DNA of 37,692 bases. Origin: an uncultured Pirellulaceae bacterium (GTDB lineage: Bacteria > Planctomycetota > Planctomycetia > Pirellulales > Pirellulaceae). Where the stretch lies: the NCBI GenBank assembly GCA_937981585.1, contig CALJOA010000112.1:1-37692 (forward strand), read 5' to 3'. Within the stretch, counting starts at the first letter, position 1. The number at the start of each line of letters is the position of its first letter. The notes under the pieces were generated by a model that did not search any database, was not told where the DNA came from, and worked only from the letters and a program-made list of their open reading frames with translations. Positions 46 through 16,012 of the stretch are shown here, in pieces. The position numbers and the translations under genes were made by a program.

Positions 46-1086
46 CTATTGATCGTCGCCGTCGGCTGCAGCACGATACTTTTCGACGATGTCGCGATAT
101 CGGGCAGGAAGTTTTTCCTTCACAGCGTTGTTAGCTGGGTCGCGTAGACGATCTCGCAAACGACTCCAAGGACTGGCAGGCGAATCGTCGTAAGTTTTCA
201 CGACTTTTCCATTAGAGTTGCTACTCTGTCCACCACTCTGACCTGGCTTTGTTTCGGCTTGTTCACCACCAGGCGTTGATTCGGCTTTTTCATCACTAGG
301 CTTCTGACCAGAAGCTTGACTACTCTGTCAGGTACTGCACTCTTTTTTCTCAGCCTCTTTGATCATCTCAGTCAGCATACCAACGATCTTGTCTTGCTCT
401 TGCTGAGTCTTCTCACCAGTTTCGATTTGCGTCAGACGCCGTCGTGAATAATCCATTCGCTGATGGACATCATCGAGCTGGCCTTCTTTGATCGACTTCA
501 GCTGTTCGTGTTGTCGCCAAGCACTAACAAGCAGACGCTCTGGAGCATCGGGATTGTTGGCGATAAATTCTTTGAACGACTCGACGGCTTCCTTGTTTTT
601 GAGGAGGCCGGCTTGAGCTACCGCTTTGAAGTACTGAGCACTTCCTTGATGAGCTGAGTGGTCACCCATCTCACCTATCAATTTTTCAAGCCGTGGCATC
701 GCTTCTTCGAACCGCTCGCTGTTCATCAATGTTCGAGCTAGGTAGAAATTCGCATCGGCAGCGAGGAACTTGTCCTCTGATTCAGCCAGTGGACTGAGAA
801 GCTCGATCGCCTGATCGGTGTTCTCGGCGTCGGAAGACTCAACCGCAGCTGAGTACTTTGGATAGATTGCAATCAAGCCATCGGTTATGCCATCTGACGA
901 TCGCTTCTTTTCGACGGATGCCTTTATCGAAGATTTCTTCTCGGTATCCAACGAGTCCATTGACTCAACATGCTTCAGGAAAGAGGTGACGACTTTGGTC
1001 ACGTGGCTATCAGCAGCTGAGACGGAACACATCAGCATTGCCAACAGGCAGCTACATGTGCTTTGAATCAGGGAAGTTCGTTTCAT
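46..1086 (-). CDS. Secreted TPR-like protein with in-frame UGA; candidate selenoprotein (plain ORF 328-1086)
   Basis: The start ATG (1086) follows AGGA at about 6 nt. Residues 1-24 form a signal peptide. Residues about 80-185 are helical TPR-like repeats and about 205-248 a charged coiled coil, so this is probably a periplasmic scaffold. The plain ORF is 252 aa and ends in C-S-T-TGA (stop at 328-330). The same frame then stays open for 93 codons to TAG at 46-48. The extension is Q/S/G-rich and then forms a compact helical tail including PWSRLRDRLRDP and LPARYRDIVEKYRAAA. That looks like real coding sequence, and no ATG in it could start a separate gene. If UGA is decoded, the product is 346 aa with a CxxU-like motif. 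It is the last gene of the moxR/BatA operon, 204 nt after the coiled-coil gene. The alternative is a nonsense mutation: GGACAGAGTAG occurs in frame 99 nt downstream, so TGA could come from GGA. The TPR part is confident; the decoding is not. Confidence 0.8.
300..315 (-). promoter_or_regulatory. SECIS-like hairpin just after the in-frame UGA
   Basis: Read on the minus strand, the perfect inverted repeat GCUUCU-GGUC-AGAAGC begins 13 nt after the UGA, placing the GGUC loop at +19 to +22. Known bacterial SECIS elements are stem-loops right after the UGA, with a small apical loop that has G in its first two positions, roughly 16-37 nt downstream. From memory, the E. coli fdhF element also has a GGUC loop after an 18-nt gap. 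There is no obvious bulged U in the 5' arm, unlike fdhF. A chance hairpin in a repetitive Q/S/G-coding stretch is possible. Confidence 0.5.
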
Positions 1087-1290: not shown

Positions 1291-3396
1291 CTATTGGTTC
1301 TCTTTTTCCATGATGGTTTCGGTCATTTCCAGCAGTTTTTCCTGTAATTGAGCCGCTTCCAGGGCCTCTTTATCAAGTAAAGGCTCCAAGCCCTCGGGAT
1401 CGCGTTGCCGCAACTCGTCAACTTTCTTGGTGCGGCGGTTCAGACGGAGCTGCTGAATTCGTAGGACTTTTAGTTCGGCTGACTTTTTAAGCAGGGGTTG
1501 GTCACCGCCGCCGCCACCGCCACCTCCACCGCCGCCTCCATTATCATCATTTTTTTGCTGCGCTTCTTTTAGTGCATCGAGCAAATCTTCGATCGTGGTT
1601 TCGATTTCTTTCTGGACCAGTTGGGTGTACTGCCCCGTCTTTTCATCCTGAAGTAAATCGGCGGCGGTTTTCAAATCTGTCCGCAAGTCCTGAACGATCT
1701 CCGGGAAGACGATACTGGTGCCATCCTCAAGCAGCAGATCATAGGCCTGCTGACCAAGCTCGCTGATCTCGATTTCGTCGTTGGAAAGCTGCAGCATCAA
1801 CAACTGGTCGCGCCGGCGAAGCTTGCCAAGGTTGGTTCGTTTGTCATCCAGTTCGATCGTCATGACATTGGTTACCGTCTGCCGTTCGAGCATCTGCTTG
1901 AAACGACCTTCCAGCCGAGCTAACTTTTCCTCGCGGGTTTCATCACGAAGCTGCGCGAGTCGGTCTTCGATTTCCTCAATCGCTTCCTCGATTTTGTTCT
2001 CGGCGATCTTCTGTTGCTTCTGCGCATTTTCAGGATCGTTCTCTTGCATTTCGTCGGAAGCCTCTTTCATCGCATCGCTGGCTTCGCCCATTTTCTCCTG
2101 ACCGGGTTGCTGAGAAGGAGCAGAGTCAGCTTGTGCGCCATCTTCTTTCTTGGGCTTGGGGGCAGCTTTCATTTCCTTGACCAAGTCCATCGCCTTGTCT
2201 CTGGTCCGGCGCTGCTTTTCAGCCATTTGTTGAAGCGCTTCAGGAGGAAGCGACTCAATGCGTCGCTTTTCTTTTTCCATTTCGCCGAGCGCTTTTTTCA
2301 AAGCGTCAAGCGCGTCTTCTTGTTTACGTTTGGCTACCTCAAGTTTTCCACTTCCAAGCTTTTCTTCAGCTTGCTCCTGAGCTTGGGCGGCTTTTTCCAA
2401 CGACTCCTGGCCGGGTTGAGGTGGTTGGTTCTGCTGATCGCTAGGCTTTCCGTCGCTAGGTTTGCCGTCACTAGGCTTTCCGTCGCTAGGCTTTCCGTCG
2501 CTAGGTTTGCCGTCACTAGGTTTGCCGTCGCTGGGTTTGCCGTCACTAGGTTTGCCGTCGCTGGGTTTGCCGTCGCTGGGTTTGCCATCGCTGGGCTTAC
2601 CATCGCTAGGCTTGCCATCGCTAGGCTTGCCATCATTCGGTTCACCGTCTCCCGATTCACCGTCTACCGGTTCACCCTCGCCCTGTTTGGGTAGACCATC
2701 ATTAGGCTTGTTGAGTCTGGACATTTCCTTCTTCAACTCTTCTGTCTTTTTACGAACTTCGAACTGCTTGTCAGCGACTTTGTCCAAGGCTCGGATACCA
2801 GCCTTGCCTTTATCCTTGGTATCTTCGATGACTTCTTTTTGCTCTTGGATCAACCCCTTGAGCTTTTTGATCTGCCCTTTGAGTTCGTCAACGGCCTTCT
2901 CTTTATTAGCAATCTTCTCCAGCTCGGTTCGTTTGACCTGTTGTTCACGGAGCACCTTTTGGAACTCGTCTTTCCATCGTTGAAGCTGTTCCTGCTCCTC
3001 CTGCTTGGTCGCTTCCATGGGCTTCTTTTGAGTCAACAGCCGAACCAGTGACTCAATGTTGTTGATCACTTCGTCCAGTAGGCCGTCGGCTTCTTGAAGT
3101 TTGTCGTCGTCGAGCAGTCGCCCAACTTCGGCCATTTTTTTGGAGATCAACTTTTCTTTGGATTGCTGATAGGCCGCGACCAACAACTCGGCTCGCTTCG
3201 GCTCTTTCTCGCGCAGCTTTTCTGCGATAACTGTGAGCTTGGTTTCCAACTCGAGCATCTTTTTCTGCACGAGACGCTGCCGAACGCCCAATTCACTGCG
3301 CTTATCGGTGTCATCTTGAGCAGTCAGAGGAACTACGCTCACGGCGATCAACAGAGATGCAAAAAGTAACGTTAGAATTCGTTTTGAAGTTTCCAT
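1291..3396 (-). CDS. Secreted coiled-coil protein with PSDGK repeats
   Basis: I chose the ATG at 3396, not the longer frame to 3432, because it has GAGGA about 6 nt upstream and gives a clean signal peptide (METSKRILTLLFASLLIAVS, cleavage after a T-A-Q region). The mature protein of about 675 aa is almost entirely charged helix and coiled coil. It is broken by a low-complexity linker at roughly residues 255-325 made of about 13 K-P-S-D-G units, and by a 13-glycine run near residue 640. No enzyme motif is visible. It lies between the DUF4175-like gene (171 nt upstream) and the TPR gene, as the seventh member of the moxR operon. A periplasmic structural or spacer role is inferred; no precise family is recognised. 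Confidence 0.85.
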   Translation of the reverse strand: METSKRILTLLFASLLIAVSVVPLTAQDDTDKRSELGVRQRLVQKKMLELETKLTVIAEKLREKEPKRAELLVAAYQQSKEKLISKKMAEVGRLLDDDKLQEADGLLDEVINNIESLVRLLTQKKPMEATKQEEQEQLQRWKDEFQKVLREQQVKRTELEKIANKEKAVDELKGQIKKLKGLIQEQKEVIEDTKDKGKAGIRALDKVADKQFEVRKKTEELKKEMSRLNKPNDGLPKQGEGEPVDGESGDGEPNDGKPSDGKPSDGKPSDGKPSDGKPSDGKPSDGKPSDGKPSDGKPSDGKPSDGKPSDGKPSDGKPSDQQNQPPQPGQESLEKAAQAQEQAEEKLGSGKLEVAKRKQEDALDALKKALGEMEKEKRRIESLPPEALQQMAEKQRRTRDKAMDLVKEMKAAPKPKKEDGAQADSAPSQQPGQEKMGEASDAMKEASDEMQENDPENAQKQQKIAENKIEEAIEEIEDRLAQLRDETREEKLARLEGRFKQMLERQTVTNVMTIELDDKRTNLGKLRRRDQLLMLQLSNDEIEISELGQQAYDLLLEDGTSIVFPEIVQDLRTDLKTAADLLQDEKTGQYTQLVQKEIETTIEDLLDALKEAQQKNDDNGGGGGGGGGGGGDQPLLKKSAELKVLRIQQLRLNRRTKKVDELRQRDPEGLEPLLDKEALEAAQLQEKLLEMTETIMEKENQ
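2437..2629 (-). repeat. Tandem 15-bp repeats encoding K-P-S-D-G
   Basis: About 13 head-to-tail 15-bp units, read on the plus strand as CCGTCGCTAGGTTTG and variants, differ mostly at silent third positions (CTAGG/CTGGG, CCG/CCA, TTTG/CTTT). The protein repeat K-P-S-D-G is kept while the DNA has diverged. Degenerate units (E-P-N-D-G, E-S-G-D-G) flank it on the N-terminal side. It is a coding tandem repeat that may vary in copy number between strains. Confidence 0.95.
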
Positions 3397-3567
3397 TGTC
3401 GTCCTCAGTTTGGTTGAAAGACACGCCTGCATATAAGTTAACGGTTTGGCGTCTCAAATCTTAGATTGTTATGTGAAAAACTGGATTGGCCTTGCCTCTG
3501 CAAAGCCCCCAGATTCCACGATTGTGAGTGCAGGTACAACACGCTTGCTGGACATTAGATTGCTTTA

Positions 3568-5793
3568 CTAGTTGTCGAAGATGTCCTCGCCGCCATCTTT
3601 GGGTTTCTGAGCGTCTTTGATGCCTCTCTTAAGTTCTTTTTCCTGGTCTTTGATATCGAGAAAGTCATTGATGACTTCCTGAAAGTTCTCCGAATCGTTC
3701 ATTGCCGAAAGGATTCGTTTCATTTCTTCCAGAATCGCGGTTTGCACCGCCACCGTCTGGCCGACTGCCTTGTCGAGCTCGCCCTCGGTTTGAATCGCGC
3801 GTCGACAGTCATCCAAATGACGGGTTGCCATTGAGATAAGTTCCGAATCAAGTTGCCGAATCGGCTGGATGATTTTCTCATCGAATCTCGTCTCAATTCT
3901 CTGATCTGGCGCGACCGCGTTTTCGGCTTCGTCGAGCCGATTGTTTTTGACTTCGACCAGGAAGTCTTCGAATCGATTGGCAACCCGGTCGATCGCTGTC
4001 CCGACTCCTTTTTGATCTCGAACCATTTCGATCAGGCTTGCTTCCTGTTGGGCCGCGAAATCTTCTTTGGTCGTGCCTTCCTTGGGTTGCCGCGCAGCGA
4101 CGGCTTGAATCTCACTCGTCAGCTCCAGTTGAATCTGGTAAGCCTGATCAAACGCCTTTCGTTGCTCGATTTCCCGGCGAAGCAAGTCTGCGCGAAGCTG
4201 GTCGTCGGACACAACTCGCAACAAAAACTCTTGCGACTTCCCAATTTTGGCTTGATTAGGGAAGTTATCAAATGCGGCGACAGAAAATTTGAAGCTTGTG
4301 CCCGGGTTGAGTTTCAGCGGCACCAAGTCCAGCACCACGTCCTCTTCGGCTGTTCGAGTTGGGGGGCCGTCTTTTTGTGCATCAAATTCTGCGATCGGAA
4401 TCTCTCGCTTGCCGTTGTTATCTTCATCTCCAGCTTTCCAGTAGCAATCAAATGCAGTCGAACGCAGTCCGTACTCGTCGGTCGCTTGATACGAGGTGGG
4501 AAGCATTGCTCGAGCGGAAACCAGGCCGCTGATTCCCCATAGTTTTGCCCGCACGCGTGGTGGAGCGTCTTCCTTGATCACAATTTTGAACTTAGATCGA
4601 CGCGAACTCTCGAGACCCGTAACATCGGTTAATTCAAATTCGTATTCGCCGCCCACTAGTTTTTCGTCCGCACCGGGGATGGTCAATCCAAATGAAGTGT
4701 CATCGGTCGTCTTTTCCATTGCGAACACTTCTTCACCAAGTTTCAAATTTGCACCCGAAAGTGGCTTGTTGGATTTGATGGCCAGTTGCAACTTGCTTCC
4801 GACTAAAATCGAGTGAGGGCCGTTGCCAGCTAGTTCAACCGATTCAACGCCCGTGTATTTTGGCAACAACGCGTCCATTTTGAGTTCGAGAATGTTGGGC
4901 GGCTCAACCAGTTCAACATCCACCCACGCTGAAACGTCGTCGCCACCAGCGGCGCGAAGACGAAACTCGGAAGAAACGTTGTGAAACATAAAGACATGTT
5001 CGCGACCATCAAGCTTTCCGGTCGGTTTCATCTGGTGATACGTTCGTCCGCCAGGATTGTCGATCTCAAGCGAAACTGACACGTTGGTTTCTTCGCTGTC
5101 TTCGCGAACGGTGACCAGTTGCCGATGATCGACGCCGCGAGGCAGAATCAGTTTGCCGTCTTTGACGCCAGCGATGTCAAGATAAGTTGCCTGCGGCCAC
5201 TGGTCCTCCAATAGCAAGATATTTCGATTGAACCAAGTCGAAAGAAATTGGTTGTTCATAACGCCCCAGCCCAGAGCGACCGAAGCCACGATCCCGGTTG
5301 CCAGCAGCAACCAGTTTTTGTAGTGAGATTCGAGATCGAGGGCATTGCCAAAATTGATCGCACCCGCGTTATCCAAACCCTGTTGGATCGTCGCGTCGGC
5401 AAGCTGCCGCGAAACGCCTATTGAGTCGAGATCCTTTTCCCGAGCAAGCTGCATGCTGGAAATCAGGCTTTCCTTGAGTTCCGGATTCTTGTTCTCGATC
5501 TCGTAAATCAAAGCGTCATCGTTAGGGCGTGCGCCTAGCGGCTTGATCACTTTCCAGCCAAAGTAAACCAGCGCCGCTACACACATGATCACCAGCATGA
5601 CCAATCGCTGAGCCATGTCCATTTTGAAAACACGGTCCAGCACCATATCGGCGGCAAGAATCAACAGCACGACCAGCAACCAGCGGCCCAGACCATGCAC
5701 CATGATCCAGCGCGTCAGTTGACCTCGCATGCGATTGAGTTTTCGCAAGATCACTTTGGGGATCGGTTGTTTTTCAGATGTTACGGTTGCCAT
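3568..5793 (-). CDS. DUF4175-like membrane protein
   Basis: The 741-aa product has three hydrophobic helices near its N terminus (about residues 35-55, 62-82 and 158-178). A long extracytoplasmic part follows, made of beta-rich, Ig-like segments (about 200-520), then a helical, coiled-coil C-terminal region rich in E/K/Q. The layout resembles DUF4175 and related BatA-associated planctomycete membrane proteins; the family name is from memory and not secure. It lies 58 nt downstream of the VWA/amidotransferase-like gene and probably shares its transcript. No catalytic motif is seen. The Shine-Dalgarno sequence is weak. The role is inferred as an envelope scaffold partner of the MoxR/VWA proteins. 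Confidence 0.8.
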   Translation of the reverse strand: MATVTSEKQPIPKVILRKLNRMRGQLTRWIMVHGLGRWLLVVLLILAADMVLDRVFKMDMAQRLVMLVIMCVAALVYFGWKVIKPLGARPNDDALIYEIENKNPELKESLISSMQLAREKDLDSIGVSRQLADATIQQGLDNAGAINFGNALDLESHYKNWLLLATGIVASVALGWGVMNNQFLSTWFNRNILLLEDQWPQATYLDIAGVKDGKLILPRGVDHRQLVTVREDSEETNVSVSLEIDNPGGRTYHQMKPTGKLDGREHVFMFHNVSSEFRLRAAGGDDVSAWVDVELVEPPNILELKMDALLPKYTGVESVELAGNGPHSILVGSKLQLAIKSNKPLSGANLKLGEEVFAMEKTTDDTSFGLTIPGADEKLVGGEYEFELTDVTGLESSRRSKFKIVIKEDAPPRVRAKLWGISGLVSARAMLPTSYQATDEYGLRSTAFDCYWKAGDEDNNGKREIPIAEFDAQKDGPPTRTAEEDVVLDLVPLKLNPGTSFKFSVAAFDNFPNQAKIGKSQEFLLRVVSDDQLRADLLRREIEQRKAFDQAYQIQLELTSEIQAVAARQPKEGTTKEDFAAQQEASLIEMVRDQKGVGTAIDRVANRFEDFLVEVKNNRLDEAENAVAPDQRIETRFDEKIIQPIRQLDSELISMATRHLDDCRRAIQTEGELDKAVGQTVAVQTAILEEMKRILSAMNDSENFQEVINDFLDIKDQEKELKRGIKDAQKPKDGGEDIFDN

Positions 5794-5851: not shown

Positions 5852-8479
5852 TTACAAAAGCTTGTACCATTTTCGTAGCGTCCACTCGATCGTCAAAAGT
5901 ATTACCGGAAGCAGCAATATCCCCCAGCGCAAAACCAAGTTGCCATCCCAAAGCGGTTTGGGCGGACTGTTGAATTCGGCGCGGGTCACGATAGTGGGAA
6001 GCGACTCAGCCACGTCCTCCAATTGATTCAATTGGAAATACTTGCCGCCGGACTGCGTGGCGATATCGCCCAGCAATTTTTCGTTCAACCAATAGGCACC
6101 TGATTCGGCTGTCGGAGGGACAACGCGAAACGTAATTGGATCGATTAATTTTTCATCCGACGAACCCAATTCGATGGTCGCCTGATAATTTCCGATTCGC
6201 TGCGCCACAAAGGTGCCCTCGTAACGCCCTTCCTGATTGGGAAGCAACTTCATGGCAACTGTCTGTGAACGGCCATCGTCGGAGCGAATCGTTGCCTTGT
6301 GCATCTCCTGAGTTGAAGGGCGAAACTCTTGATCGAGTACTCGGCCGACCAAAACGATTCGATCACCAAGCTCAAATTCTGTTTTCTCAGCATCAATAAA
6401 TCCGCGACGCGAACCTTGAAGCGACCGGGTCTCGACGAGATAACGAACGACCTGGATCCAGAACCGATCGAAGTACTCGGCTTGCACGCCCAGCGGACGC
6501 CAGCGCCATGTGCCTTGGAATCCCATGTACAGCACCGAACCGGCTCCGTAACGTCCGGCCACCATCAACGGCTGATTGCCTTCAGCATTGACTTGATCAC
6601 CGCGCTCCAACAGCACACGGGCTGTGGCCTTTGGCTTGAGCGTCGGAAAGTTCCAATAGATACCGGGCATCAAGTTCCAGATCTTCAACGTCTCGGCTGG
6701 GTCGGCACGGAAGCTCATCACTGGATGGTCCATGTTGTGATTGACCACCAGCATCCTGCCAGGCTTTCCGCCGCCTTGGGCTGAAGTCAACACTTCGACG
6801 GTATCAATAAATTCAATGTCACCAAAACGGACCGGCAACAAATCGTGAATCGACTTGAGCCGATTCATTGTGACGAATTCGCTGGTGAACTGAGGGCCGG
6901 CCATGAACAGAACACCGCCGGCTTTGGTTTTGCAGAACTCTTTCAAGTTATCCATCCACTGAGCATCGAACTCCTCCGAGTTCGGATCCATCAGAATTAC
7001 GACGTTGTACTCAGCCAGTTCCTGAGGCGTGCGAGGCAAACGAGTGATCGCCGGGTTTCCTTCTTGCGGACGACTTTCATCCATCGACTGAAGCCAGCAA
7101 CTAAGTGCGATCGAAGAATCTCGCGCGAGCAAGCGTCGGACCTGTTGGTAGTCCCAACTGGGCAAGCCCGAAACCAACAGCACGCGAACCTTTTCATCGA
7201 CGACTTCCATGACGGCCGAAACTTCTGAGTTGTCGTCAGTTTCAGTTTCGTCATCAAGCGCGGCGACTTGGACGGTGTAAATGTACTTTCCGGGCTGGGT
7301 CAGGATATGATCGAAATCAACACGGATGCGCCCGCCATTGGGAGGCACTTCGACAGATTTTGTTTTGATCGCCTGAGGCGCACCTGGTTTTCCGGTTGTT
7401 AGGTCGATCTGTTGCTGAACCAGTTCAACATCGATGCTCGGTGGCATGCCTTCTTCGCCGACCTGACTGGTTTGCAGGATTGCTTCGATCTCAAACGGCT
7501 CATCAGGATAGGCTTGCTCGCGAACGTAGACTTCGTTTACGGCAAGGTTCTTGGGTGGATTAGGATCGCCAACTCCGACTACAAAAATCGGAATCCCCAG
7601 CGAAGCCGCTTTGCGGGCAATTTCTAACGGATCTTCGGTTCCATTGTGCTGGCCATCGGTAACCAAGATGATCGAGGACAATCGGCTGGCGTCATCAAGC
7701 GATTCTCTTAGAGCTTGCCAGATGTCGGTCCCCAAGCCATTGGCCTCAAGCTCAGGCATCGAATCGCGAAGCACCGTTTCCCCAGCCCCTTCTTCAGCAG
7801 CGGCCGGATCAGCCGGCTCGTTCGATTGAGCAATCGCCGAGTTCCCGTCGTCAGAATCGCTTGATTGGTCGGGCTGGACGTCTTTGCCTTGTTCTTCGTC
7901 GCCTTGTTTTTCAACGATCGCAGGAATCACGGCAATCGGCGCGTTTCCATCGGAAAAGTTGATCACACGGATCGAACCCTTGTTGCGAAGTTTCTCCAGC
8001 AACTTGGGGTTCTTTTTGAAAGCCTGATTGAGCAGTGCTGAGCGTTTGATCTCACCCGAGGCGATGTCTTGGGCCAGCAGTCCGGTTGCCTCGGCAAGCT
8101 GGTTGGCTTGGTCCTTGCTGCGATAATTGTCACCACGGTCGAACGACAGCGAACTGTCTCGAAGCATCGCAATCGTCGGTTTGATCAAATTGACTTTTTG
8201 ATAAAACACAGATGGTTCGAGGTACATTGCGACCAGCAACAGCAAAACGGTCAGCCGCAAAAATCCCATCAGCATTTTGATCGGCATTGGGCAAGTGTTG
8301 ATCTCGCGTCGGTACATCCAGAATACGCCAAAGATGATCGCCAGGATCACAATGATCAAGACGAACACGCCCCAGGACTCTGGCATATTTGCCCATTGAA
8401 GCCGAGGCGCACCGGCAGCCTCTGGATCGCCGCCGACAACCCATTGGAGAAATTTGTTTTCCGCAATCAAAAAATTCAA
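5852..8479 (-). CDS. Membrane VWA / glutamine-amidotransferase-like protein
   Basis: This is an 875-aa protein. Two transmembrane helices (about 36-58 and 68-88) are followed by a split VWA-type domain. The metal-site motif D-S-S-L-S begins at residue 108, and a later strand reads IILVTDGQHNGTEDPLEIA (about 275-295). A CARF-like beta section and a class-I-amidotransferase-like fold (about 430-620, VRVLLVSGLPSWDYQQVRRL onward) follow, but I see no clear catalytic Cys-His-Glu triad. A final transmembrane helix lies at about 853-870. The reading frame starts with TTG (8479), preceded by GAGACGAAG; the first ATG, at residue 32, has a weaker ribosome site. It is the fifth operon gene. By analogy with BatA-like proteins it probably presents its VWA domain outside the inner membrane. 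Confidence 0.85.
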   Translation of the reverse strand: MNFLIAENKFLQWVVGGDPEAAGAPRLQWANMPESWGVFVLIIVILAIIFGVFWMYRREINTCPMPIKMLMGFLRLTVLLLLVAMYLEPSVFYQKVNLIKPTIAMLRDSSLSFDRGDNYRSKDQANQLAEATGLLAQDIASGEIKRSALLNQAFKKNPKLLEKLRNKGSIRVINFSDGNAPIAVIPAIVEKQGDEEQGKDVQPDQSSDSDDGNSAIAQSNEPADPAAAEEGAGETVLRDSMPELEANGLGTDIWQALRESLDDASRLSSIILVTDGQHNGTEDPLEIARKAASLGIPIFVVGVGDPNPPKNLAVNEVYVREQAYPDEPFEIEAILQTSQVGEEGMPPSIDVELVQQQIDLTTGKPGAPQAIKTKSVEVPPNGGRIRVDFDHILTQPGKYIYTVQVAALDDETETDDNSEVSAVMEVVDEKVRVLLVSGLPSWDYQQVRRLLARDSSIALSCWLQSMDESRPQEGNPAITRLPRTPQELAEYNVVILMDPNSEEFDAQWMDNLKEFCKTKAGGVLFMAGPQFTSEFVTMNRLKSIHDLLPVRFGDIEFIDTVEVLTSAQGGGKPGRMLVVNHNMDHPVMSFRADPAETLKIWNLMPGIYWNFPTLKPKATARVLLERGDQVNAEGNQPLMVAGRYGAGSVLYMGFQGTWRWRPLGVQAEYFDRFWIQVVRYLVETRSLQGSRRGFIDAEKTEFELGDRIVLVGRVLDQEFRPSTQEMHKATIRSDDGRSQTVAMKLLPNQEGRYEGTFVAQRIGNYQATIELGSSDEKLIDPITFRVVPPTAESGAYWLNEKLLGDIATQSGGKYFQLNQLEDVAESLPTIVTRAEFNSPPKPLWDGNLVLRWGILLLPVILLTIEWTLRKWYKLL

Positions 8480-8561: not shown

Positions 8562-11459
8562 TCAAAAATCAACCAATTCAACATCAAACTTCAAAACCGA
8601 ATTGGCTTTGATTTTCGGCAACTCGTGATCCCCGTAAGCAAGTTTGCTGGGAATGTACAATGTTGCCTTGGATCCTTTGTTGAGCAGTCGGATACCTTCC
8701 TGCCAGCCAGGGATAAGCGACGCCAGCTTGAACTGTGGCGCCTCTCCACCGCGTTCAATTGACGAATCAAAGACCGTGCCATCAAGCAGTGTGCCGTGAT
8801 AGTGAACCGAAACGGTAGAGTCGACTGGAACCCGTGGCCCTTCGCCTTCTTTGTTGATCACGTAACGCAAACCTGAAAGAGTTTTCGAAGCGGCGATCCC
8901 TTTGGCTTTCAAATGTCTGTCGATTTTTTCTTCGTCGGTCTGCTTTAGATCGGTCTTTGAAACGGATGGCTTTGGAGCGACCGGTTTCTTGCTGACGCCC
9001 TTCTTGGACGGATCGGCCTTGCCGGCCTCCTCGGCTGGTCCAAGGGCGTACAAACGATTGGCTCCGTGGACCCAAAGCCGTTCGCCATCACTGTAGAGAT
9101 TGCCAACTGGAGCGAGGGTCCCAAGATCGACGTGCGACTTGGCGATAATCTTCGCATCGCCTTGGTCGCCGTTGAGGTCAAACTGATAGATCGTGTCTTC
9201 GACGGGCATGTAGATACCATCTGGCGTCAGCATTCCGCGTCCAAGAGATTGTTTTCCATCAAAAACCTGCTCGGCGCCCCAAACCATCCTTCCATGGCCG
9301 GCCAAATCGTAAGCGATAATTGTTTCGGTCCCGGCGGCATAAAGCATGTCATTGTAGACGCCCAAAATGTAGTCGACCTTGAATCCGATTGGAGTCGTCT
9401 CGGTTCGCCAAATTGCTTTTCCGGAATTTCGATCATACGCGACAATTGTTTCGGAATCGGAGTTAAAGCAGATCATCTGCCGACGATACGGCACGATGAT
9501 GTCGCTTGACCAACCTGAAAAAGTCAAACGATCGCGCAACCTGTTGTTGCGTTGTGCAGTTGAATCCCGAGTGCCCGCACGCTCGTAGCGCTTGGCAAAT
9601 CGAATGGTGCCTGACGCAGGGTCAAGGACGAACACGACTCCCAGCCCACAACTGACGAACAGATCACTTCCTTCGATCGAAAGGTTGATTGCTGACCAGG
9701 GCGCCGCGCCTGTCAAGGGCTCGTCACAGAGGAACGATTTCCAAATCGTCTTTCCTTCCTGATTTGGATCCAGTGCGTAAATTGAAATTGCTCCGCCGGT
9801 GTTGACGGGCACGATGATCGTATCGCCGTAACCGATGGGCGCCGCCATGAATCCAGCGTTGGAAATCCAGGGTGAGTCGCCTTCGGCCAAAATCTCTTCG
9901 GCAGAATGCTCCTCTCCCTCAGGGGCTTTGCGGGGCAGCGTCCACTGCACCCGTCCGCTGACTGAATCGTAGGCCGTCAAGAAGTTTAACCTGGTTCGAC
10001 GGATCGAAAAATTCAATTGAGGCCTGGCCTGGTTTTTGGCTGCTTTGTATTTGACTCCGAAACTTTCGCCTTCGATCGCATACAAATTCTTTTGGTGGAT
10101 CGACATCTGCTGATAGATCTGATCCCCAAATAATTGGACTTCGGTAAGCCCGGTAGGAATGGGTGACAAGCTAGGAGGTTTCTTCTTGTCGCCCTTTTTT
10201 CGACGGTTTCGTTTGGGTCTCGGTCGAAACATCTCAAGCGACCGGGTTACTTCGTCCAAGCGAAAAATGTTGTGCCAGGCACTGCGCCACTCAATTGCAC
10301 CTTCAAGTGTGGTTTGTTGGAGCGATTGTTTGGCCAGCTTGGATATCTTCTTCCGATTCCATACCGCGATGTCCGATCCGGTTTTAAAGAAGACGCGATC
10401 ACCATCGATCAACAAGTGGCCGGTCGGTCGCCAGGTTTTCTTACGCCACGAAGTAATCAATTCCTCTTCCAGGTCATCAACGGTCTGCAATACCTCAGCA
10501 CCAGAAGCGTTCCCTCCAGTCAGCATCGCGCCGTTAACGTCGGCCGCTTTTAAATATGCTTCCTGTGGATCGAAATAGAACTGCCAGACAGCAGCCAGAT
10601 CCTGGCTCATTGTATCCTTGGGTAGTGGCGGCATCGTGCCGTAGCGCCGGGCGTCGCCCATCGGGTTGTTCCAGCTGGTCAAGTAGGAAAGATCGGAATT
10701 CGATGCAGCCAGCTGGGCCAGTGAACGACGAATCATACCGGGCTGCTCTGAGCTACCGTTGATGTCGGTCGCCTGTTTCAAAGATTCCTCGGCTAGATTG
10801 ACGTCGCCAAGGAACGCCTGACAAAGCGCGATTCGTGAGTAGACCTCATCCATCGGCATCGTCGGATCGGGATGCTGTGTGGCAATTTTTTCGAACAGAC
10901 GGCGGGCACCAATAAAATCGTATCGGTCGAGGAAGATACAACCAAGTGAATAAGCGGCTTCGTCTCCGAGAGAGCTGACAAAGTACGAACGCACGATTTT
11001 GTTCAGCGCTTCTGTGTCACTTGGTCCGGTCGCTTGAGCCAGGATTTCTTTTACCTCCGCATCGGCCAAAACGCGATAGGCCTGCAACCCCTCCGGTGGA
11101 AGATTGGCAAGGATTGCTTCTACTTGTTGGACTAGCGAGAAGTAAGTCTTGCCATCCTCGGAGTAAAGCGAATCACCGCTCCGTTGCAGGACGGCTTGCC
11201 ACAACTGCGACGCGACGCGGTAGTTCCCGTCGTTTTTGATTCTCTCGGCCTGTTGAAGAATCGATTCAAGATCAGGATCGGTTTTGAGCACTCCGCCGGA
11301 TTCGGTATCAGGCTTGTCCTCAACACGGACACCCATGTCGATGCCCAAACCGCCACGAAAGACTTGAGCCGAGCAGGAAAAACTCGCGCCAAAACCGATT
11401 ACTGCGACCAGCAATGACCGAAAAAAGGTTTTCGAAAATTTAAGTTTTAACCTGTCCAT
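8562..11459 (-). CDS. Secreted PQQ-type beta-propeller fused to FKBP prolyl isomerase
   Basis: I chose the ATG at 11459. It follows AGGA by 7 nt, starts a signal peptide (cleavage near S-C-S-A-Q), and avoids overlap with the upstream gene, which stops at 11468. The mature protein has a TPR-like helical part (about residues 55-270) and a PQQ/WD-like propeller (about 330-820) with repeated blades such as VFVLDPASGTIRFAKRYERA and IVAYDRNSGKAIWRTE. After a Lys/Pro-rich linker comes a complete C-terminal FKBP domain (last 110 residues) with VSVHYHGTLLDGTVFDSS and GWQEGIRLLNKGSKA. FKBPs catalyse cis-trans isomerisation of X-Pro bonds. Propeller blades of this type either bind quinone cofactors or act as protein scaffolds; no cofactor ligands are identified here. 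The fusion suggests a periplasmic folding factor serving the operon's other exported proteins (inference). Confidence 0.88.
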   Translation of the reverse strand: MDRLKLKFSKTFFRSLLVAVIGFGASFSCSAQVFRGGLGIDMGVRVEDKPDTESGGVLKTDPDLESILQQAERIKNDGNYRVASQLWQAVLQRSGDSLYSEDGKTYFSLVQQVEAILANLPPEGLQAYRVLADAEVKEILAQATGPSDTEALNKIVRSYFVSSLGDEAAYSLGCIFLDRYDFIGARRLFEKIATQHPDPTMPMDEVYSRIALCQAFLGDVNLAEESLKQATDINGSSEQPGMIRRSLAQLAASNSDLSYLTSWNNPMGDARRYGTMPPLPKDTMSQDLAAVWQFYFDPQEAYLKAADVNGAMLTGGNASGAEVLQTVDDLEEELITSWRKKTWRPTGHLLIDGDRVFFKTGSDIAVWNRKKISKLAKQSLQQTTLEGAIEWRSAWHNIFRLDEVTRSLEMFRPRPKRNRRKKGDKKKPPSLSPIPTGLTEVQLFGDQIYQQMSIHQKNLYAIEGESFGVKYKAAKNQARPQLNFSIRRTRLNFLTAYDSVSGRVQWTLPRKAPEGEEHSAEEILAEGDSPWISNAGFMAAPIGYGDTIIVPVNTGGAISIYALDPNQEGKTIWKSFLCDEPLTGAAPWSAINLSIEGSDLFVSCGLGVVFVLDPASGTIRFAKRYERAGTRDSTAQRNNRLRDRLTFSGWSSDIIVPYRRQMICFNSDSETIVAYDRNSGKAIWRTETTPIGFKVDYILGVYNDMLYAAGTETIIAYDLAGHGRMVWGAEQVFDGKQSLGRGMLTPDGIYMPVEDTIYQFDLNGDQGDAKIIAKSHVDLGTLAPVGNLYSDGERLWVHGANRLYALGPAEEAGKADPSKKGVSKKPVAPKPSVSKTDLKQTDEEKIDRHLKAKGIAASKTLSGLRYVINKEGEGPRVPVDSTVSVHYHGTLLDGTVFDSSIERGGEAPQFKLASLIPGWQEGIRLLNKGSKATLYIPSKLAYGDHELPKIKANSVLKFDVELVDF

Positions 11460-11467
11460 GATTTGTC

Positions 11468-13759
11468 CTATCGTTTCTTGCCCCAATACCAGCCGAGAAA
11501 CTGTTCCAACGCCAGAACGCCGAACAACAACATCAGAATCGTTAACCAAATCTCTGTGTTGCCACCTGAAACGGTTTGCTCACTCAAATCCTGTGACGAA
11601 ATCATTTTGACTTTGTCACCAAAAAAATCGCCTTCCAGTGACGCCGCCGGCAAGCGCTTGAGTTGACTCTCTCGCGGATCGAGCTTTGCCGCAAAGAGCA
11701 CGTTTTCTTTTTGACCGGTATGGCGATTGAGCTCAAGATCATAAAAGCCGCGACGTTCGATGCTGTCGAAGCTGACTTTGTAAATCTCGCTTTGTTTTGC
11801 TTCTTCCGAATCGTCCAACGGTCGAGCGACGGCTTCCGTCTTTTCGTTTTTCGGATTCCGCATTCCGACTCGTCCTTGATAGGCCGAAACGTCGAGCTTG
11901 AAATTGATATCTCCGCCGATTTCAACGGAACTATCTTCGCCGCCCGATCCGACAAGGTAATCGATCAAGTCAACCATTACCGGCGGGAATGTCGGGCTAC
12001 TGGGCCACATCGTCCAATCACCGTCGCCCGGAATCGTAAAAACAACCACGTTGCCCGCGCCCAGAGTCTTGTCGACCATCGCCGGCGATTTCTGGTCATC
12101 GCTCAATCGTAGTGGCACCTCGACCTGCGTTCCGACCAAAGACTCAGGAAGAATCGAAGTCCACCAACTGAACACATCGACATTGCTGAGGCTCGAAGCA
12201 TCGCTACCAACGATCGTTCGCAATGACGGATGGACTTGTGCATCGACTTCAAAGTTGACCCACCGCGCCATCGTGGGGTCACCGCTGATTTCAACCAGCC
12301 CGAGCGGAGAAAGGCCCTCGCCATCGCGATAGAAGGCTTCGTTAAATGTCTTGGCACGAACTCGATTACCGGGCATGAACACCAGTGAGCCACCGTCTTC
12401 GACCCAAGTCTCGAGCGACTCGACTCGCGCTCCCGAAGCCTCATCGACATTGCAGAGAAAGATGACTGAGAAATCCGACAGCGAAACAGTTTCCAGTTCG
12501 CTGGCCGTGACGACTTCCATATCCAGACCGGTCCCGGCAACTGCGAGGCTGTTGAGGTAGTGTGTTTCGCTGCGCTCCGAAGAAGCCGATGGGTCGCCGT
12601 CGACCAGGAGAACCGAAATTCCATCGATCACTCGTGAAGCGTAGAGTCCGATACTGTCGTCGAGCAACTGGTCGGCGACCAAGCCTTCTTCGCCCAGCGA
12701 CGCCCGATCAATTTCGGCTCTGACCCGGTAATTCGCAAACCGCGCTTTGACTTCTGGTTCGGGATTGAGCAAATCTACGCCCGACGCCTGGGGTGGGAAC
12801 ACGTAACGGAACGCAAGTTCTTGGGTTTGGCCGGGCGCGATCGAAGCGATCGTTTCATAGTCCGGCTGTCCGTCATCGACCTGGAGGAGAATTCGCACCT
12901 GCTCGGCGGTTCGCGTTCCATAGTTGGCGACCGAAACATTGAACTGAATGACTTTGTCCGCGACTTGAAGGTTCTCGGGACGCACGCTGGTGATCGCCAG
13001 ATTTTGGTCCGCCGAACTGCCCACGTCGATCAAGAAGCAACCGGCCGTTGTTTCGGAGATTTCTGTCGTCAGTTTGTTGGGCGCGTTTTCGCTTTCGGCA
13101 TCCAGGGAGCTGGTCCAGTCGGATTCACGCATGTCGGAGAAGATGTAAACCACTCGCCCCCCCGACTCTCGCTGACCACTGACGTAACGTTTGAGCTCAC
13201 CCAGCGAAGCACTGTAGTCGGCAACGAGGTCGGAACATTCGAGGTCGTCAATCGTCTGGTTCAGAGTTGCCAGTGTGCTGGGTGTAAGCGGTTCATTGGC
13301 CAACAGCGGCTGTTCGGGATCGCTGGTCAACATGACCGTCAGCCAATCATCGGTCTTGGTTGATTCGGCAAACCGCCCCATCATTTCTTTGGTGCTGCTT
13401 TTAATGCTGTCGAAAGCGGGCTGCGACCCGTTGAGGATTTTTTGGCTGAGCGAATCATCGATCAGGATAACGCGTTCGAGCTTCTGAGATTGTTGAAGCA
13501 CATTGGTAACGCTCGACGGCAGGAAAGGTCGAGCCAGCATAAGCGCGATCAACAGCATCGCAAGACAGCGAAGCAACAGAAGAATAAAGTTCTCAATTTG
13601 AACACGGCGACGGTTTTTTTTGTCGGCTTCGAACAAAAAGTCCATCGCTGCCCAGTCGACGATCTTGAATCGGCGCTTGTTGAGCAAGTGGATCAGGATC
13701 GGCGATGCTACAGCCAGTCCTCCCAACAACATCCACGGATTCAAAAACCAGGTCAGCAT
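11468..13759 (-). CDS. BatA-like membrane protein with VWA-like domain
   Basis: The N terminus (MLTWFLNPWMLLGGLAVASP, then an I-L-I-H-L-L-N-K-R segment) is the typical start of the BatA N-terminal domain, with helices at about 6-24 and 57-78. A VWA-like domain follows with metal-site motif D-D-S-L-S from residue 101. Next come CARF-like beta sections, an amidotransferase-like region (about 375-600), and a C-terminal transmembrane helix just before the final W-Y-W-G-K-K-R. The ATG is preceded by AGGA at 7 nt. The gene sits directly between the DUF58 gene and the PQQ-FKBP gene (8-nt spacing). BatA proteins are known partners of MoxR ATPases in Bat loci, linked to oxidative-stress tolerance in Bacteroides; the precise role here is unknown. 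Confidence 0.88.
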   Translation of the reverse strand: MLTWFLNPWMLLGGLAVASPILIHLLNKRRFKIVDWAAMDFLFEADKKNRRRVQIENFILLLLRCLAMLLIALMLARPFLPSSVTNVLQQSQKLERVILIDDSLSQKILNGSQPAFDSIKSSTKEMMGRFAESTKTDDWLTVMLTSDPEQPLLANEPLTPSTLATLNQTIDDLECSDLVADYSASLGELKRYVSGQRESGGRVVYIFSDMRESDWTSSLDAESENAPNKLTTEISETTAGCFLIDVGSSADQNLAITSVRPENLQVADKVIQFNVSVANYGTRTAEQVRILLQVDDGQPDYETIASIAPGQTQELAFRYVFPPQASGVDLLNPEPEVKARFANYRVRAEIDRASLGEEGLVADQLLDDSIGLYASRVIDGISVLLVDGDPSASSERSETHYLNSLAVAGTGLDMEVVTASELETVSLSDFSVIFLCNVDEASGARVESLETWVEDGGSLVFMPGNRVRAKTFNEAFYRDGEGLSPLGLVEISGDPTMARWVNFEVDAQVHPSLRTIVGSDASSLSNVDVFSWWTSILPESLVGTQVEVPLRLSDDQKSPAMVDKTLGAGNVVVFTIPGDGDWTMWPSSPTFPPVMVDLIDYLVGSGGEDSSVEIGGDINFKLDVSAYQGRVGMRNPKNEKTEAVARPLDDSEEAKQSEIYKVSFDSIERRGFYDLELNRHTGQKENVLFAAKLDPRESQLKRLPAASLEGDFFGDKVKMISSQDLSEQTVSGGNTEIWLTILMLLFGVLALEQFLGWYWGKKR

Positions 13760-13892
13760 TAAAGTTCCTATCGCCTATCGTCGTAATTATCAGTTCAAAC
13801 TCGAAGCGCAAGCCAGTGGGGCTTGGTGAGGTGGAATTCCCCACTGGCTGGCGTTTCGAGCTTTTGTAGAAGTTAAAATTATCCAGTCCCGA

Positions 13893-14822
13893 CTAAAACA
13901 GTTTACGCCGTGATTTGGCGCGGAAGTTCAAGTAGCTCGAAAGCACTCCATCAAGCGGTTTGGATGTGTCCAGCAGGACGTGATCGATACCTGCAGACGC
14001 ACAAACCTTTTTGACTCGCGTCATGTAACGATCCAACGCTTCCATGTACGACTTTCGCAGCGCCCGGGGTTCGGTATGCAACTCGGCGTCGACTTCGATA
14101 CCTCGAAACAAAGTGTTTTCTTGAAACGGGAATTCCAGTTCGTCGTTGTGCATTACGTGGAACACCACGACTTCGTGTCGTCGCAAACGAAACTGCTGCA
14201 ATGATTTTCCCAACTCATCGGGATCAATAAACAAATCCGAAAACAGGACCACCAAACCGCGTTGGCGAATTTGAGCCGCCAGCGCCAAAAACGGGTCGGC
14301 GACATCAGTCGTGTTGTCCGGCTCAATTTGTTCCAGCTCGTGAAACAGCATTTTCATGTGCGAAGGATGCGAAGACGATTTGAAGTTCTTGTCGATCTTG
14401 TTGCTAAACAACACCATCCCGACAGCGTCCTGTTGCTGTTGCATCATATAGCCAACACTAGCGGCGGCTGTCGCAGCGTAATCGAATTTGCTCCAGCCCC
14501 CCTCTTCGCCGTATCGCATCGATTTACTGCAATCGACGATCAGGTGACATTTGAGGTTAGTTTCTTCTTCGTACTCTTTAATGTACAGCCGATCAGTCTT
14601 TGACCAGACTTTCCAGTCGATGTGCCGCAGGTCGTCACCTGGAGCGTACTCGCGATGGGCGGCAAACTCGATCGCAAATCCGTTGTATGGACTGCGGTGC
14701 TGACCGGTGATGAATCCTTCTACGACCAATCTCGCGCGGACGTCAAGCCGCTTGATCTTGTCAAGCGTTTTTGCGTCAAGGTATTTTGTGCCCGAGTTTT
14801 CAGAAGTTGACATCTTTGCCAT
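13893..14822 (-). CDS. DUF58 family protein
   Basis: This 309-aa soluble protein carries the DUF58 signature Y-A-P-G-D-D-L-R-H-I-D-W (about residues 59-70) followed by a VWA fold with metal-site motif D-C-S-K-S at 97-101 and LVVLFSDLFIDPDELG in the second half. DUF58 proteins are nearly always encoded beside MoxR ATPases and are thought to be their VWA-domain partners; here moxR lies 119 nt upstream. Two possible starts, ATG at 14822 and 14813, both have weak ribosome sites, and I used the longer one. The length is normal for the family and no key residue is missing. Confidence 0.93.
   Translation of the reverse strand: MAKMSTSENSGTKYLDAKTLDKIKRLDVRARLVVEGFITGQHRSPYNGFAIEFAAHREYAPGDDLRHIDWKVWSKTDRLYIKEYEEETNLKCHLIVDCSKSMRYGEEGGWSKFDYAATAAASVGYMMQQQQDAVGMVLFSNKIDKNFKSSSHPSHMKMLFHELEQIEPDNTTDVADPFLALAAQIRQRGLVVLFSDLFIDPDELGKSLQQFRLRRHEVVVFHVMHNDELEFPFQENTLFRGIEVDAELHTEPRALRKSYMEALDRYMTRVKKVCASAGIDHVLLDTSKPLDGVLSSYLNFRAKSRRKLF

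Positions 14823-14941: not shown

Positions 14942-16012
<1,071 letters not shown>

Follow-up and report, generated by a model that had tools for sequence, protein, structure and literature searches.

The question raised by this locus is whether a TGA triplet that closes a TPR gene in a planctomycete acts as a stop or is read as selenocysteine (Sec). The gene is encoded on the minus strand of a 37,692-nt stretch of DNA from an uncultured Pirellulaceae bacterium (the window, meaning the whole stretch analysed), in a frame running from position 1086 to position 46. Its ATG-initiated open reading frame (1086-328, 252 codons) ends with TGA at 330-328, and 93 further codons are open past this triplet before the TAG of the extended frame is reached at 48-46. 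The initial annotation, made from the letters of the window, had claimed an open frame of this length, which was confirmed on the minus strand, and had proposed the TGA as the codon of a selenocysteine, which would be residue 253.

The TPR gene and the tail past the UGA

The part of the gene before the UGA (331-1086, minus strand) encodes a signal-like N-terminal segment, called by eye, followed by a TPR solenoid (residues ~24-220) and a long helix (225-253). The Pfam TPR matches to the gene were weak, and one of them was slightly over its cut-off. The tail (49-327, minus strand), assigned from its homology to non-UGA members and from dN/dS, comprises a probably disordered linker and conserved C-terminal helices, and includes a conserved C-terminal motif of 45 codons (SPWSRLRD..LPARYRDIVE; 58-192, minus strand). 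A single AlphaFold2 model, built from an input of 28 sequences (27 of the 33 loci plus the window), had a mean pLDDT of 77.6. In this model, residue 253 ends the long helix after the TPR solenoid and is followed by a low-confidence linker at 254-302 (pLDDT below 50 at 257-302), which we read as disordered, and then by short C-terminal helices.

To judge from codon comparisons, the tail past the UGA is under purifying selection. When ten genus sequences were compared pairwise (45 pairs), the 45-codon motif showed 899 synonymous codon differences and 80 non-synonymous ones; the dN of the tail was lower than that of the body in all eight pairs computed, and tail dN was far under dS, or dS was saturated. 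In homologues with a sense codon at the site, the homologous tail is fused in frame. The ratio of tail to body dN was 0.54-0.57 in the three pairs that include the window, as against 0.28-0.31 in the five others, and the window differed from its nearest relative, G021, by 35 synonymous and 18 non-synonymous codons.

A genome-wide recoding of UGA was rejected, because TGA also terminates 5 of the 16 other open reading frames of the window. The sequence around the triplet is partly repetitive on the minus strand: GGACAGAGTAG recurs in frame as a partial repeat 99 nt downstream of its copy at the TGA, and CAGAGTAG, directly after the TGA (320-330), duplicates the copy that follows the GGA at 231-229 (221-231).

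Conservation of the UGA and of the SECIS-type hairpin

A homologue search over 60 genomes, namely the window's own and 59 relatives, returned a match to the TPR gene in 56, with E < 1e-60 in 26 of the 28 genus genomes; the gene was not found in the other two among the 60 searched (G020 and G022). At the site of interest, 10 of these 26 genus genomes, including that of the window, have TGA, and 16 have sense codons. TGA was found at the same site in G044, which belongs to another family. A wider alignment search, covering 396 genomes in the order and in which the UGA matches number at least those listed here, added G062 from the family of G044. A conserved TGA with an open tail is therefore present in at least 12 genomes (the window's, nine other genus members, G044, and G062). 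One further candidate, G360, was left out of the count; a scan had suggested one TGA, yet its site reads CSSC without a stop.

The phylogenetic tree contained 30 rows: 28 of the 33 loci (L174, L176, L170, L177, and L180 being left out), G062, and the window. Taken as a single group, the Sec forms need one change, but the branch support is 21/55. With such support, Sec may have had one origin or two in the family.

The initial annotation had suggested that homologues be aligned and this column inspected for Cys or UGA, and had described the site as a CxxU motif. The alignment placed UGA at the site in the 12 genomes; Cys pairs occur in some homologues, and the CxxU form holds for part of the family. 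The window reads ECST-U, with the codons C-S-T ahead of the TGA, and G044 and G062 read GCGT-U, both of the CxxU type, but the nine genus relatives read NCK(K/Q)GGT-U (CxxxxxU). Across the UGA members, a Cys thus stands three or six residues ahead of the UGA. Homologous sites include ECSSC, GSCKNC, and QCSGGQC, as well as Cys-free forms such as EVSNSKSN, and the 16 sense-codon genus members comprise 5 with Cys at the site and 11 with none. No strictly aligned Cys was found in the Sec column; the stretch is of low complexity, and the Cys/Sec column is not firm. The homologues at L027, L032, and L035, which have neither Cys nor Sec, carry long glutamine runs in the linker at the site of the Sec form.

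The SECIS-type hairpin claimed for the window is present as described (GCTTCT-GGTC-AGAAGC, 300-315, minus strand). It is a perfect 6-bp stem spanning +13 to +28 after the TGA, and its GGTC loop starts 18 nt past the TGA. The E. coli fdhF spacing cited in the initial annotation was also right, since in the fetched sequence of E. coli K-12 fdhF, where the UGA is codon 140, GGTC begins 18 nt past the UGA. The two systems therefore share a UGA followed by a GGUC-loop hairpin at an identical distance; they differ in the protein and in the stem sequence, and the loop lies 21 nt from the UGA in the 11 other UGA genomes. The geometry agrees with the bacterial SECIS criteria given in PMC13188914 (loop of 3-9 nt, upper stem of 4-16 bp, 16-37 nt from the UGA, and G within the first two loop positions), as the hairpin has a loop of 4 nt beginning with GG, a stem of 6 bp, and a spacing of 18 nt. 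The 50-nt fold from the UGA had an MFE of -9.7 kcal/mol in the window, against a threshold of <= -7.5 kcal/mol in that paper. For the 16-nt hairpin alone, the value was -5.6 kcal/mol in the genus, compared with -9.5 for G044 and G062, and the minimum-energy fold did not contain the hairpin in G024 (50 nt) or in G003 and G044 (60 nt). An Rfam scan of positions 1-1500 of the window gave two matches, both far below their gathering scores.

The window contains 1537 TGA triplets, counted on both strands and in all frames, and the TPR-gene TGA is the only one with a GGTC loop 16-37 nt away on a Watson-Crick stem of at least 6 bp. The generic bacterial geometry was passed by 965 of the 1537 at a stem of at least 4 bp and by 243 at 6 bp or more, so the loose model alone has little meaning. 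The strict GGTC hairpin is a rare feature; the loose geometry is no evidence.

Codon usage within the hairpin was examined in the ten genus sequences, whose tails contain 58 columns where the amino acid is invariant and its codon degenerate. Each of the five hairpin codons (A-S-G-Q-K) was represented by a single codon (5/5), compared with 4 of the 53 other such columns, and the chance of five invariant hairpin codons is C(9,5)/C(58,5), approximately 3e-5 when relatedness is ignored. The hairpin of G044 and G062 has the sequence GGCTCC-GGTC-GGGGCC. Stem pairing was complete (54/54 cells), with both sides changed in three of the six pairs between the genus and G044/G062, and the best slid version of the hairpin had 55.6% of its cells paired. 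For three measures, namely the cells paired, the cells with changes on both sides, and the covariation score, the real hairpin exceeded all 500 shuffles; the number of pairs changed on both sides was matched by 38 of the 500 and that of further pair types by 379. As G044 and G062 carry all of it, the covariation is in effect one deep evolutionary contrast and not many independent events.

Selenocysteine machinery and the reading of the UGA

Among ten other UGA genomes tested, selB was over the cut-off in all ten, tRNA-Sec in nine (the exception being G021), and selA in seven; the selA of G021 was partial at a contig end, and G003 and G018 had none over the cut-off. selD was over the cut-off in all ten, and also in G062, which was checked for selD alone. 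A selB survey of 18 genomes detected the gene in four without the UGA form, of which G004 and G025 have sense codons at the site and G020 and G022 are those without the TPR gene, and found it below the cut-off in the window's own genome (G000), G002, G029, and G030. The machinery permits the UGA form without predicting it.

Of 19 genomes searched for SelD, four (G021, G024, G044, and G062) had a TGA in frame within SelD itself. The residues are CAG-UGA-AG in G021 and G024, and the context CGG-U-A or CAG-U-A with a downstream hairpin was observed at L182 (G062), L184 (G021), and L186 (G024). The nearest relative of the window, G021, accordingly possesses in SelD a second candidate selenoprotein gene.

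A search of the window's genome for selA, selB, selC, and selD, proposed in the initial annotation, went largely against it. This genome is a MAG with a size of 3.5 Mb, 158 contigs, and a completeness of 80.2%; selD was over the cut-off within a 773-codon open frame, and no selA, selB, or tRNA-Sec over the cut-off was found in the MAG at this completeness. The SelB-like matches were rejected (best score of 157 bits against a cut-off of 242), and the best of them is probably EF-Tu, as it stands beside tRNA-Tyr/Gly/Thr genes in the manner of EF-Tu. Eight of the nine tRNA-Sec-like matches were scanned by ARAGORN, and all eight were ordinary tRNAs. Contig C43 is collinear with G021 as far as the pair of genes ahead of selB in that genome. 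Across 13 genus selB loci, some of which are cut, the first preceding gene adjoined selB in 10, the second in 3, and the following gene in 11. On C43 (L148), at approximately 11732-14321, an IS200-like transposase ORF and a panC-like ORF, both called by eye, occupy the place of selB; selB and the gene following it were absent from this locus, and the DNA of the G021 selB locus, compared with the whole of G000, found no match for selB or beyond. For selC, the flank of a relative barely matched G000. The absence of selB from this place on C43 could reflect loss, relocation, or a chimeric contig.

Taking the conserved UGA, the invariance and covariation of the hairpin, the constrained tail, and selB in the relatives together, selenocysteine is the most likely meaning of the codon, and the UGA in this TPR family of marine planctomycetes is very probably decoded by SelB with tRNA-Sec. 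The selenoprotein reading of the initial annotation is therefore supported for the gene family, with selB in 10 of 10 genomes, and falters at the window's genome, where no selA, selB, or tRNA-Sec passed the cut-off. Certain observations stand against Sec even for the family: Cys is not aligned to the Sec column, CxxU is not conserved, and 16 of the 26 genus genomes have a sense codon. A sequencing error, or a GGA-to-TGA mutation within the repeated stretch, was the counter-argument of the initial annotation, and GGACAGAGTAG, in frame 99 nt downstream as it had reported, would be its source; the identical TGA of 11 further genomes, in none of which CAGAGTAG follows the TGA (0/11), refutes this origin, which can practically be dismissed. 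That CAGAGTAG follows the TGA in the window and in none of the other TGA genomes, and that the NCK(K/Q)GG residues before the UGA are missing, is suggestive of a small rearrangement close to the site. An ORF call with plain table 11 closes the gene at the UGA, as it should if the codon were a genuine stop in every member and the tail belonged to another or a dead frame, but the tail is constrained at the protein level, and homologues with a sense codon have it fused in frame, which makes this very improbable. Conservation of codon and hairpin does not show which amino acid is inserted, and the UGA might be read through without Sec, by a near-cognate tRNA or programmed read-through with the hairpin as a stimulator. 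This too is improbable, if less so than a real stop, as the loop sequence and distance match fdhF, selB was present in all ten of the other UGA genomes tested, and the base after the UGA varies (C or G), which disfavours a fixed read-through context.

The species of the window may be a separate case: the Sec genes would have been lost recently, the UGA would act as a genuine stop that ends the protein at residue 252, and the intact hairpin and tail would be relics. We consider this plausible, if somewhat short of probable. It agrees with the failure to find selA, selB, or tRNA-Sec over the cut-off in G000 (p ~0.008 for missing all three if they are independent at 80% completeness), with the disappearance of selB from its locus, which is conserved across the genus and here adjoined by an IS200-like ORF, with the raised ratio of tail to body dN in pairs with the window, and with the absence of the Cys-containing NCK(K/Q)GG ahead of the UGA. 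The MAG is fragmented, however, at 158 contigs and 80.2% completeness, single genes are missing in relatives as well (selA in G003 and G018, tRNA-Sec in G021), and the contig may be chimeric at the IS-like element; moreover, SelD is present, the hairpin is identical, the tail is open, and synonymous differences from G021 outnumber non-synonymous ones. Continued Sec decoding in this species is thus uncertain. Such a loss would be compatible with Sec decoding in the family at large, and the conclusion for the family is independent of the decoding status in the window's species.

The Bat-like operon and comparison of the family with known selenoproteins

The operon context reported in the initial annotation was correct and proved to be conserved in relatives. 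All genes lie on the minus strand in the order MoxR-type AAA+ ATPase (14942-16012), DUF58 protein (13893-14822), BatA N-terminal domain protein (11468-13759), a 995-aa protein with a C-terminal FKBP_C domain and a weak PQQ match (8562-11549), an 875-aa VWA-domain protein (5852-8479), two large unnamed proteins, and the TPR gene as the last. The unnamed proteins are one of 741 aa with no Pfam match (3568-5793) and one of 713 aa with PSDGK repeats and a poly-glycine run (1291-3432), for which no Pfam or NCBIfam match was obtained. The order of the three genes nearest the TPR gene was kept in six of the seven relative loci examined, the seven representing six genomes (L138 and L181 share a contig), and the seventh, L153, ends inside the first neighbour gene; the 713-aa gene adjoined the TPR gene in 7/7 loci, and the 741-aa and VWA genes were each present in 6/7.

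This arrangement resembles the Bat (Bacteroides aerotolerance) operon, in which MoxR, DUF58, BatA, and VWA genes occur with a TPR protein (PMC5700661). It differs in the FKBP gene and the two large unnamed proteins, and Sec is not mentioned in the accessible part of that paper. No Bat-named model in Pfam or NCBIfam matched the TPR protein. None of three TPR proteins searched against NCBIfam, with the UGA entered as U and treated as Cys, was over a curated cut-off, and among 28 family members at 1e-5 the sole model matched was tol_pal_ybgF, in two. According to the available text of PMC3557215, the Bat proteins of B. fragilis have been proposed to reduce damaged periplasmic proteins or to export reducing power, bat mutants of L. 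biflexa showed no oxidative phenotype, and the literature is divided on a role in aerotolerance.

In the mechanism we propose, the TPR proteins of this family, whose genes close a MoxR-DUF58-BatA-VWA operon in planctomycetes, are probably exported. A subset of members would carry one selenocysteine. Its UGA, which coincides with the end of the last TPR-domain helix or lies just past it, would be decoded by SelB and tRNA-Sec with the help of a bacterial SECIS of canonical type whose GGUC loop starts 18-21 nt past the UGA. Read-through would append the disordered linker and the conserved C-terminal helices. With at least one Cys nearby (CxxU or CxxxxxU), and given the Cys pairs of some homologues, the Sec would belong to an envelope site, of a thiol/selenol redox or a metal-binding kind, that works together with the Bat-like complex; a selenol of this kind as part of the Bat-like operon is our best guess. 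Sec insertion, export, and the redox role are presumed. It is also conceivable, although rather unlikely, that the Sec sits at a hinge between the TPR scaffold and the C-terminal helices and renders a Bat/MoxR envelope machine selenium-dependent, with a full redox form in the presence of selenium and a truncated scaffold in its absence, the window's species having lost decoding and making the short form only.

The family was compared with published selenoproteins. The CxxU families in Table 1 of PMC13188914 (2026) are similar in having one Sec near a Cys, some Cys homologues, and a canonical bacterial SECIS, whereas here the Sec is predicted to border a disordered linker that follows the TPR solenoid; the same paper ascribes a thioredoxin-like fold to most characterized selenoproteins. 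It counts 119 families and subfamilies of selenoproteins. None of its table entries is a TPR protein, and the words TPR, tetratricopeptide, and Planctomyc are absent from the accessible part of its text. The same terms were not found in the available text of the deep-Sep paper (PMC12013277) and of a review (PMC9312934), and PMC1794560, as far as its accessible text goes, names Planctomycetes among the phyla with few genomes. Planctomycetes of Porphyra (PMC4807772) likewise possess Sec insertion genes and selenoproteins; those treated are FdhA and FmdB, and TPR or tetratricopeptide occurs zero times in the main text. Among the titles listed from the open literature on planctomycete selenoproteins, selenoproteomes, tetratricopeptide and TPR/MoxR proteins, metagenome families, groundwater MAGs, and Mariniblastus, none concerned a Sec TPR protein. 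The proposed TPR selenoprotein family is absent from the catalogues checked, namely the table of PMC13188914, so far as accessible, and NCBIfam.

If the UGA is read as selenocysteine, this would be a selenoprotein family built on a protein-binding scaffold instead of a redox fold, and selenium would be placed in a Bat-like operon of unsettled biochemical role. The Bat proteins have been proposed, in the accessible text of PMC3557215, to bring reducing power to the periplasm, and a conserved selenol in such an operon would make this proposal directly testable. A plain ORF call cuts these genes short, and their most conserved, C-terminal part is lost. Members with Sec, with Cys, and without Cys in one genus may serve as a natural series for the gain and loss of selenocysteine.
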